From Clostridiales bacterium (GTDB taxonomy: Bacteria > Bacillota > Clostridia > Oscillospirales > CAG-272): a stretch of 64,000 nt of DNA. The translations under genes and the position numbers were made by a program. The stretch lies in NCBI GenBank assembly GCA_022793655.1, contig JAAWDG010000011.1:1-64000 (forward strand), read 5' to 3'. This document shows, in pieces, positions 56,919 through 60,111 of this stretch (its first letter is position 1; each line of letters opens with the position of its first letter). The notes beneath the pieces were generated by a model. The model was not told where the DNA came from and did not search any database. It saw only the letters and a program-made list of their open reading frames with translations.

Positions 56919-58850
56919 TTACTTTATTTTATCATTGACTTCTTTTAGGGCTTTCTCAATGAAAGCGTCAACTGACATAGCGCCTAAATCTTCGCCTTTG
57001 CGGTTGCGTACCGAAACGGTGCCAGATTCCATTTCTTTTGCGCCGATAATCAGCATGTAAGGCAGCTTTTCAAGCTGTGCCTCACGAATTTTATAGCCAA
57101 TTTTTTCATTTCGATCGTCAACGCTAACTTTAAGTCCTATAGCCGTACAGCGGTTTGCAATTTCATGCGCGTAGTCAGCCTGTTCATCACCAATCGGCAG
57201 CAAACGAATTTGTTCAGGACTAAGCCACATGGGCAGTGCACCGGCATATTTTTCAATTAGCAGTGCCAAGGTTCTTTCGTAACAGCCGATGCTGGTACGG
57301 TGAATAATGTAAGGTGTTTTGGCTTTGCCATCCGAATCTGTATACTTCATGTCAAACTTTTCAGCTAAAAGCATGTCAATTTGAATGGTGATAATCGTAT
57401 CTTCTTTGCCATGGACGTTTTTCATTTGAATGTCAAGTTTGGGGCCGTAGAATGCAGCTTCACCAATGCCGATTTCATAGTCAATACCCATGTTGTCTAA
57501 AATCTTACCCATAACAGCTTGGGCATGATCCCATTGTTCGGTTGTTCCTTCAAATTTTTCTGTGTTCGTGGGATCCCATTGCGAGAAACGATAGGTACAG
57601 TCATCGGCAAGTCCCAGTGTTTCAAGCATATGTTTTGCTAATGCGAAACAGCCTTTAAATTCTTCTTCTAACTGGTCAGGGCGGATGATGAGATGCCCCT
57701 CTGAAATCGTGAACTGCCGCACCCGGATGAGGCCATGCATTTCACCTGAATCCTCATTACGGAATAGCGTAGAGGTTTCACCAAATCGCATGGGCAGATC
57801 ACGATAGGAGCGTTTGCGGTTTAAATATGCCTGGTATTGAAAAGGGCAGGTCATAGGTCGCAGGGCAAAACATTCTTTTGTTTCATCGTCTGGATCGCCT
57901 AAAATAAACATACCATCGCGGTAATGATCCCAGTGTCCTGAGATTTTATAGAGATCTCTTTTAGCCATGAAGGGTGTTTTGGTGAGCAGGTAGCCTCTTT
58001 TTTCCTCTTCATCCTCTACCCAGCGCTGCAATGTTTGAATGACTCTAGCGCCTTTAGGTAAGAGAATTGGCAAGCCTTGGCCAATTACCTCTGAAGTCAT
58101 GAAAAATTCAAGTTCACGTCCTAATTTATTGTGATCTCTTTTTTGTGCCTCTTCGACTTGTGTTAAATAGGCATTTAATTGATCTTTGGCTGGAAAGGCC
58201 GTGCCATAAATACGCTGCAGCTGCTTGTTTTTGGCGTTGCCTTCCCAATAAGCGCCTGTACACTGGGTTAGCTTCAGCGCTTTAATGGCACCCGTGGAAA
58301 ATAGGTGAGGACCTGCGCAAAGATCGATAAAATCTCCTTGTTTATAGAAGCTGATCTCTTCGCCTTCCGGCACTTTTTCAATTAATAATACTTTATAGGG
58401 TTCGCCTTTTTCCTGCATCAGTTTAATGGCCTCATCGCGGGGCAGGCAAAAGCGTTCTAAACGTTGATTTTCTTTGACGATTTTTTTCATTTCTGCTTCG
58501 ATTTTAGCAAGGATATCAGCCGAAAAGGGAACTTCTGAATCAAAGTCGTAATAGAATCCGTTGTCAATCGCAGGGCCAATGGTCAACTTTACTTCGGGAA
58601 ATAAACGTTTGACTGCTTGCGCCAATACATGAGAGGCGGTGTGCCAAAAAACTTTTTTGCCGCCGGTCGATGCAAAAGTAAGCGGAACAAGTTCGCAATC
58701 GGTATCAATGGTGGTTGTTAAATCACATGTTTTACCGTTTATTTCACAAGCAAGAATATCACGGCTGACCGGACCTTGCGAAGCAAGTGCTTCGTAAGCG
58801 GTAAGAGGCTGTTCGAAGCAAAGCTCTTTTTGTTCTACGTTGATTTTCAT
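56919..58850 (-). CDS. thrS: Threonyl-tRNA synthetase
   Basis: TGS domain, HTASHVLAQAVKRLFP, class II motifs MRFGETSTLFRNEDSGEMHGLIRVRQF. Confidence 0.97.
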   Translation of the reverse strand: MKINVEQKELCFEQPLTAYEALASQGPVSRDILACEINGKTCDLTTTIDTDCELVPLTFASTGGKKVFWHTASHVLAQAVKRLFPEVKLTIGPAIDNGFYYDFDSEVPFSADILAKIEAEMKKIVKENQRLERFCLPRDEAIKLMQEKGEPYKVLLIEKVPEGEEISFYKQGDFIDLCAGPHLFSTGAIKALKLTQCTGAYWEGNAKNKQLQRIYGTAFPAKDQLNAYLTQVEEAQKRDHNKLGRELEFFMTSEVIGQGLPILLPKGARVIQTLQRWVEDEEEKRGYLLTKTPFMAKRDLYKISGHWDHYRDGMFILGDPDDETKECFALRPMTCPFQYQAYLNRKRSYRDLPMRFGETSTLFRNEDSGEMHGLIRVRQFTISEGHLIIRPDQLEEEFKGCFALAKHMLETLGLADDCTYRFSQWDPTNTEKFEGTTEQWDHAQAVMGKILDNMGIDYEIGIGEAAFYGPKLDIQMKNVHGKEDTIITIQIDMLLAEKFDMKYTDSDGKAKTPYIIHRTSIGCYERTLALLIEKYAGALPMWLSPEQIRLLPIGDEQADYAHEIANRCTAIGLKVSVDDRNEKIGYKIREAQLEKLPYMLIIGAKEMESGTVSVRNRKGEDLGAMSVDAFIEKALKEVNDKIK

Positions 58851-58965
58851 GATGCATACTCCTTAATATAAAATAAACACCCCGGACACATGTGTCCGGG
58901 GTGTAGATTGCGGTATCGTTCAATCTGCACGGTTCCACCCGAGCTTTTCTCTCATTTCATATAAT

Positions 58966-59006
58966 GAAGACACCATAAAGCAAATACAAACATAACAAGG
59001 TGTCTT
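58966..59006 (-). repeat. 41-bp exact direct repeat, copy 1, inside the thrS T-box leader
   Basis: + strand GAAGACACCATAAAGCAAATACAAACATAACAAGGTGTCTT; termini AAGACACC/GGTGTCTT are inverted repeats. Confidence 0.97.
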
Positions 59007-59058
59007 CTTGAAAATTCACCGCTAAAGCAGTGCATTTTCCAACGCTTACTCGTTTAAC

Positions 59059-59099
59059 GAAGACACCATAAAGCAAATACAAACATAACAAGGTGTCTT
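59059..59099 (-). repeat. 41-bp exact direct repeat, copy 2, inside the thrS T-box leader
   Basis: Identical 41-mer to 58966-59006. Confidence 0.97.
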
Positions 59100-59216
59100 T
59101 ACGCTTTATGGTATAATATAAAAATGGTAAGTGGTATTTTTATAATGTCTACCGCGGTTTCACACCCACGCCGCTCTCTTGAGGCGACCTTTTATAAAAA
59201 CATATCTTACAATAGC

Positions 59217-59245
59217 ATCTTACCATATGCGTATTTTTTTGTCAA
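59217..59245 (-). promoter_or_regulatory. Promoter of the thrS leader
   Basis: Minus strand TTGACA (59245-59240), 17-nt spacer, TAAGAT (59222-59217). Confidence 0.8.
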
Positions 59246-59252
59246 GGGCGAG

Positions 59253-59281
59253 TTGACAAAAAAGTCGCGCTGTGCTAAAAT
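59253..59281 (+). promoter_or_regulatory. Promoter of the HAD hydrolase gene, divergent from the thrS promoter
   Basis: TTGACA (59253-59258), 17-nt spacer, TAAAAT (59276-59281). Confidence 0.8.
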
Positions 59282-59307
59282 AGCGCCTGAAAATGGGGGG
59301 CGACGTC

Positions 59308-60111
59308 ATGGCGAAATATGCGTTTTTTCTGGATATAGACGGCACACTGCTCGACACGGCTTCGGTTGTGTCAGAAGAGAACAAAGCGGCTTTATGCTAT
59401 GCAAAAGAGCAGGGATGTAAGATCTTTGTGAATACAGGACGCGGATATGCTTGTATTCCCGATGAAATTTTATCTTTGCCGCTTGACGGTATTGTGGCCG
59501 GTTGTGGTTGCACTGTTTTGTATGGAGGCAAAGTCGTTCATTCCGAAGTGGTGCCGAACGAGGCAATTTATTCCTATTTAAAAGGTATTGAAAAGCGTAA
59601 ACAAAGTGCTTTTTTAGAAGGAGAAAATTGTCTGTTTCGGATGAATTGCGAGCCGACTGATGCGAAGATAGGTACTCCGCTTGGTGAATACTGCCATGCT
59701 GCACGCTTAGATTTTTCGCTTTGGCAGCCGCTTGTCGGCGCCGGTGACTTTTTGAAGTATCCGCAGCCGCGTATCCCTAAACTTAACTTAGTTGGTTCAT
59801 TTAATAAAGAACTGCTGTTAGATTATCAAGAACATTTTGACGGTGTCATTGATGAAGTTAAATGTGAAATGTACACAAAAGGTCACAGCAAAGCGACGGG
59901 TTTACGTCTAATCATGCAAGATTATCTGCCTGGCTTTTGTAGCGTGGCCATAGGTGACAGCGTAAATGATATTGATATGTTTCGTGCAGCTGATATTTCG
60001 GTGGCTATGGGCAACGCGAGTGAAGTTGTCAAGCAGCTATGCATAAAACAAACGGCTGCTGCAGATGATAATGGCGTAGGAAAAGCGATTATGCAGCTGC
60101 TTCATGGATAA
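59308..60111 (+). CDS. HAD-superfamily Cof-type hydrolase
   Basis: MAKYAFFLDIDGTLLDTASVVSEEN; VAIGDSVNDIDMFRAADISVAMGNA. Confidence 0.93.
   Translation: MAKYAFFLDIDGTLLDTASVVSEENKAALCYAKEQGCKIFVNTGRGYACIPDEILSLPLDGIVAGCGCTVLYGGKVVHSEVVPNEAIYSYLKGIEKRKQSAFLEGENCLFRMNCEPTDAKIGTPLGEYCHAARLDFSLWQPLVGAGDFLKYPQPRIPKLNLVGSFNKELLLDYQEHFDGVIDEVKCEMYTKGHSKATGLRLIMQDYLPGFCSVAIGDSVNDIDMFRAADISVAMGNASEVVKQLCIKQTAAADDNGVGKAIMQLLHG

Follow-up and report, generated by a model that had tools for sequence, protein, structure and literature searches.

The window analyzed here, a 64,000-nucleotide stretch of DNA from a Clostridiales bacterium, carries on its minus strand a threonine--tRNA ligase gene (thrS) preceded by a leader that extends for about 360 nt from a promoter to the gene. 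The source genome, a draft in 25 contigs, is 94% complete. The nearest named relatives of its ThrS protein come from Clostridia and Oscillospiraceae genomes, many of ruminant-gut origin, and the habitats of these relatives suggest that the host is a gut bacterium. Comparisons were made with one genome per species, the congeners being G002, G003, and G001, the sister species and closest relative, whose ThrS is 94% identical. A divergent gene for a Cof-type HAD hydrolase has a near-consensus promoter (TTGACA-17-TAAAAT at 59253-59281, in the stretch 59253-59308), which stands almost back to back with that of thrS. The features of the thrS locus are as follows.

56919-58850, minus strand: thrS, threonine--tRNA ligase, 643 aa (NCBIfam TIGR00418 equivalog, 631 bits against a cut-off of 384)
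58877-58904, minus strand: intrinsic terminator, 12-bp stem and T run
58897-58941, minus strand: antiterminator, including the T-box CGGGTGGAACCG; paired in four congeners
58941-58930, minus strand: T-box sequence CGGGTGGAACCG
58937-58934, minus strand: antiterminator UGGA bulge, matching the tRNA-Thr end UCCA
58941-58953, minus strand: small Stem III-like hairpin GAG-AGAAAAG-CTC, 5' of the T-box; kept in congeners and compact relatives
58960-58965, plus strand: TATAAT, left boundary of a repeat array; TATAGT at this site in G001
58966-59006, plus strand: palindrome A, copy 1, in unit 1; exact 41-mer with more copies elsewhere in the genome
59010-59039, plus strand: palindrome B of unit 1, GAAAATnCAC/GTGnATTTTC; B also follows A in copies L002-L006
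59059-59099, plus strand: palindrome A, copy 2, in unit 2, which has no B; exact 41-mer
59109-59117, plus strand: right boundary of the array, TGGTATAAT, a boundary common to other copies
59127-59210, minus strand: T-box Stem I, with GTAAG/CTTAC and TTTTTATAA/TTATAAAAA; from a three-congener alignment and paired changes
59133-59135, minus strand: specifier ACC (Thr), kept in four congeners; pairs with the tRNA-Thr anticodon GGU
59179-59174, minus strand: AGAGAG at the apex of Stem I
59217-59245, minus strand: thrS leader promoter, TTGACA-17-TAAGAT; a consensus match from a consensus scan, start not mapped

An earlier note on this DNA had described the leader as a T-box RNA with an ACC specifier, a T-box sequence, and a terminator, and each of these parts was found where it had been placed. 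The ACC sits in an internal loop of Stem I in all four congeners. The tRNA-Thr of the organism, located by a pattern search (Aragorn missed tRNA-Thr on the sampled stretches), carries the anticodon GGT (GGU) and the discriminator U73 followed by CCA, which fits both the specifier and the UGGA bulge. Across the four congeners, the helices of Stem I and of the antiterminator have 94.6% of their cells paired, compared to 34-53% once they are slid, and seven of their pairs have changed on both sides. The two Stem I helices that were tested are 100% paired, with double changes in one of them. Furthermore, the 3' strand of the antiterminator (58910-58897) shares bases with the 5' arm of the terminator (58904-58877), such that the two structures are mutually exclusive. 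Sequence evidence of this kind supports the assignment of the leader as a threonine-specific T-box, and tRNA-dependent readthrough is predicted from its parts.

A scan of the window at the Rfam gathering score returned no T-box, and a relaxed scan did show one. The RF00230 model aligns to the leader from its first to its last position at 30.5 bits (E 4.7e-05), which falls short of the 93-bit gathering score, and most of the duplicated part stays outside the alignment as an insert. The earlier note would have counted as refuted had the model absorbed both hairpin copies as Stem II or Stem III, which it does not do. The low score is not due to the insert, because the insert-free leader of the sister species scores 29.3 bits against the same model; the gathering threshold therefore excludes the compact type as such. 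The specifier lies 193 nt from the T-box here, 49 nt in G001, and 40-55 nt in compact relatives. Because this last distance leaves no room for a Stem II/IIA/B domain, that domain is absent, and the thrS leader is a compact T-box without Stem II. Stem II is present in most T-boxes, and glycine T-boxes naturally lack it (PMC7583486). Like the compact glyQ/glyQS T-boxes, the thrS leader has Stem I with a specifier, a UGGN bulge, a small Stem III, a competing antiterminator and terminator, and an aminoacyl-tRNA synthetase gene downstream, whereas it differs from them in its threonine specificity (ACC), its sub-gathering score, and its long spacer insert. Compact threonyl T-boxes with no room for Stem II also occur upstream of thrS in other gut Clostridia (L049-L066, L081, L085, and L125), and T-boxes of this kind are low-scoring or missed by RF00230 where tested.

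The insert occupies the spacer of this compact leader, where it lengthens the stretch from Stem I to the Stem III/antiterminator domain by about 144 nt. Its ends cannot be placed exactly, since the species compared have diverged in the flanks. The two identical 41-mers reported earlier are present as described, and no such repeat appears in shuffled sequences even with three mismatches allowed; the ungapped similarity between the copies reaches 50 nt at 94%. Each 41-mer is palindromic and can fold through AAGACACC/GGTGTCTT, as had been proposed. A hairpin in the spacer between them was also correctly noted, though it is really the second module (B) of a repeat whose unit length accounts for the 93 nt between the 41-mers. 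The array thus consists of two tandem units antisense to thrS, the first having both A and B (58966-59039) and the second A alone. Between the units lies GTTAAACGAGTAAGCGTTGG (leader sense), which resembles a decayed form of the boundary usually present, ATTATACCACAAAGCGTTGG. On either side, the two A copies are flanked by different sequence. That the A copies are identical is due to a recent duplication or to gene conversion inside the array; the suggestion of a recent duplication holds within the array and not beyond it.

The earlier note had proposed comparing the thrS leaders of related strains, and those of the related species examined are without the array. Alignment with the leaders of G001, G002, and G003 runs through Stem I and the T-box and leaves the array gapped, and the array is absent from these three leaders and from those of about 20 compact relatives. 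In G001, Stem I and the GAG/CTC hairpin are about 25-30 nt apart, and the alignment is gapped for the full length of the array. The corresponding near-empty site reads TATAGT/GATGATAG, and divergence blurs its ends and limits the comparison for a target-site duplication. On both sides of the array the T-box remains unchanged, down to the purines that precede the GAG/CTC hairpin, and all recognizable T-box parts are intact. Such alignments suggest that the repeat was inserted in the thrS leader of the source species only, among the species examined.

Copies of the same unit are dispersed in the genome, which, along with the near-empty site in the sister species, bears out the earlier proposal of an embedded repeat. 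A DNA search of the source genome revealed five more places that share 77-83% identity across about 80-105 nt, as well as weaker fragments. A covariance model built from eight copies finds eight strong copies (E <= 1e-9), two of which are those of the thrS array; the six further clear copies are intergenic, and all copies checked outside the window lie between ORFs. The order within a unit is TATAAT, palindrome A, palindrome B, and TTTGTGGTATAAT. In L002 and L003, the next TGGTATAAT starts 92 nt on. These two copies are 97% identical over 138 nt, and both continue into a second type of unit. The covariance model found nothing better than E 0.17 in the three congeners, a DNA search with the array of the window found only short chance-level matches in other genera, and a scan of viral contigs for the A-module pattern gave no match. 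Covariation in the A and B hairpins is no better than in shuffles, and therefore the palindromes alone are no proof of RNA function.

In size (about 100-200 bp), intergenic location, strong base-pairing, and occurrence in several copies per genome, the repeat resembles MITE-like elements such as RUP, Correia/NEMIS, and ERIC (PMC2229807). By inspection, however, it has no terminal inverted repeats, and its ends are direct TATAAT-type repeats instead. REP/BIME elements with RAYT are associated with a Y1 transposase, whereas Y1_Tnp (PF01797) is absent from this genome (94% complete) and was detected in five control genomes. The search for a parent transposon or mobilizing transposase, which was limited to PF01797, found none.

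The explanation to which we assign a probability of roughly 0.85 is that a short non-coding interspersed repeat was inserted into a compact thrS T-box, in the spacer between Stem I and the discriminator domain, where it folds on itself and is carried as a tolerated passenger. In the RNA, the A and B hairpins would fold on themselves to give a compact spacer. Stem I could then still read the tRNA-Thr anticodon and the antiterminator the tRNA 3' end, and the insert would be tolerated rather than needed. Stem I and the discriminator domain may need only a flexible spacer, as in glycine T-boxes without Stem II (PMC7583486). The minimum free energy fold has local A and B hairpins and an intact terminator. 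When the fold is cut before the terminator, the antiterminator forms without the insert and does not form with it, a comparison that is weak evidence given that the energy models contain no tRNA. An effect of the insert on switching is therefore possible.

A literature search for repeats inside T-box leaders found nothing direct, and the closest precedent surfaced via BOX elements. In the pneumococcal trp operon, a BOX element lies between two T-boxes, and RNA-seq suggests that the riboswitches still work (PMC3049150). In each case, a T-box leader region harbors an interspersed repeat that is modular and varies in its tandem modules. The BOX element separates two whole T-boxes, whereas the thrS array splits one, between Stem I and the discriminator. 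A further difference from this precedent is that the thrS repeat has TATAAT-type boundaries. The likeness to BOX is one of modular architecture only, and the modules and TATAAT boundaries of the thrS array were read from its own genome alone.

The second type of unit, called C-type, consists of TGGTATAAT followed by GAAACAAATC/GATTTGTTT and occurs at about 20 places in the source genome, with a similar number in G001, many of them weak. Among 196 genomes of the family, the full-length C-type unit matches only the source species and its sister. In the window and 400 kb of sampled stretches, 22 sites with TGGTATAAT and a palindrome could be assigned an adjacent gene, and 20 of them, that of the thrS array included, read toward it; the stretches were picked to include known copies, tandem units were counted singly, and genes were defined with a simple ORF rule. 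Of 69 sites with TATAAT and a palindrome, 13 have a TTG 17 nt before the hexamer, compared to 4 sites at a spacing of 16 nt and 0-2 at other spacings. Four pairs of promoter regions from the source genome and G001 (L016/L159, L023/L160, L027/L138, and L178/L170) are 88-95% identical up to the TATAAT, and past it they switch at once to different palindromes. A further candidate pair upstream of an asparagine-synthetase-like gene, considered as one site with two palindromes, was rejected because the G001 flanks are on different contigs. Tandem units of about 110-113 nt, each of which begins with a TATAAT and a 10-bp palindrome, are present at L018, L020, L021, and L023 in the source genome and at L135, L155, L201, and L205 in G001, the next unit abutting the end of the first.

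The thrS insert lies directly 3' of a plus-strand TATAAT, a position that fits insertion beside -10-like hexamers. A broader proposal, which we advance tentatively and at somewhat short of even odds, is that the source species and its sister share an uncatalogued repeat family whose palindromes are placed or kept directly 3' of TATAAT boxes and turn over together in each species while the promoter upstream stays constant. The thrS array would then have landed off target, at an antisense TATA(A/G)T hexamer in a T-box spacer. Repeats that seem tied to -10 boxes would be unusual in their insertion preference and would make the promoters and 5' leaders of sister species vary, and this wider family may matter more than the thrS array.

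The same observations could be read as signs of an antisense or divergent promoter cassette, in which the TATAAT-type boundaries, which face away from thrS and toward the divergent HAD gene, drive that gene or a transcript that crosses Stem I in antisense. The boundary TGGTATAAT matches an extended -10 element, and the orientation count given above agrees with this view. Such a cassette is nevertheless unlikely, since neither TATAAT of the array has a TTG-type -35 at 17 nt upstream, the HAD gene is preceded by a near-consensus promoter of its own, and insert-free G001 already has TATAGT at the site.

Less probable still is the earlier suggestion that the hairpins are extra regulatory stems under selection, in effect a doubled Stem II-like domain. 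Their position between Stem I and the discriminator is the place of Stem II in long T-boxes, and curious insertions with unexplained functions have been noted in every T-box domain (PMC7583486). The leader also folds far better than shuffles (z -5.4), though mostly owing to the palindromes. However, such stems are absent from every relative examined, the sister species included, similar copies sit in unrelated intergenic places, RF00230 does not take the hairpins as Stem II, and the pairing of A and B covaries no more than in shuffles.

A tandem duplication that was purely local, of a hairpin born in the leader and with no mobile repeat, would agree with the 41-mers being identical to each other and about 80% identical to copies elsewhere, but it is very improbable given the differing flanks of the two copies, the absence of this hairpin from the sister leader, and the occurrence of the composite A/B unit elsewhere in the genome. 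An assembly artefact, whether a doubled copy or a repeat misjoined into the leader, might be feared in a draft of 25 contigs with a repeated family, but is hardly to be expected for an array so short (about 150 nt, close to what one short read or read pair covers), whose copies have distinct flanks and on both sides of which the parts of the leader continue correctly.

With its inserted repeat, the thrS leader offers a natural test of how well a T-box that has no Stem II accommodates about 144 extra nucleotides between its anticodon-reading and end-reading domains. Another thrS leader (L111) has 237 nt from specifier to T-box in a spacer rich in inverted repeats, which is possibly an independent insertion.
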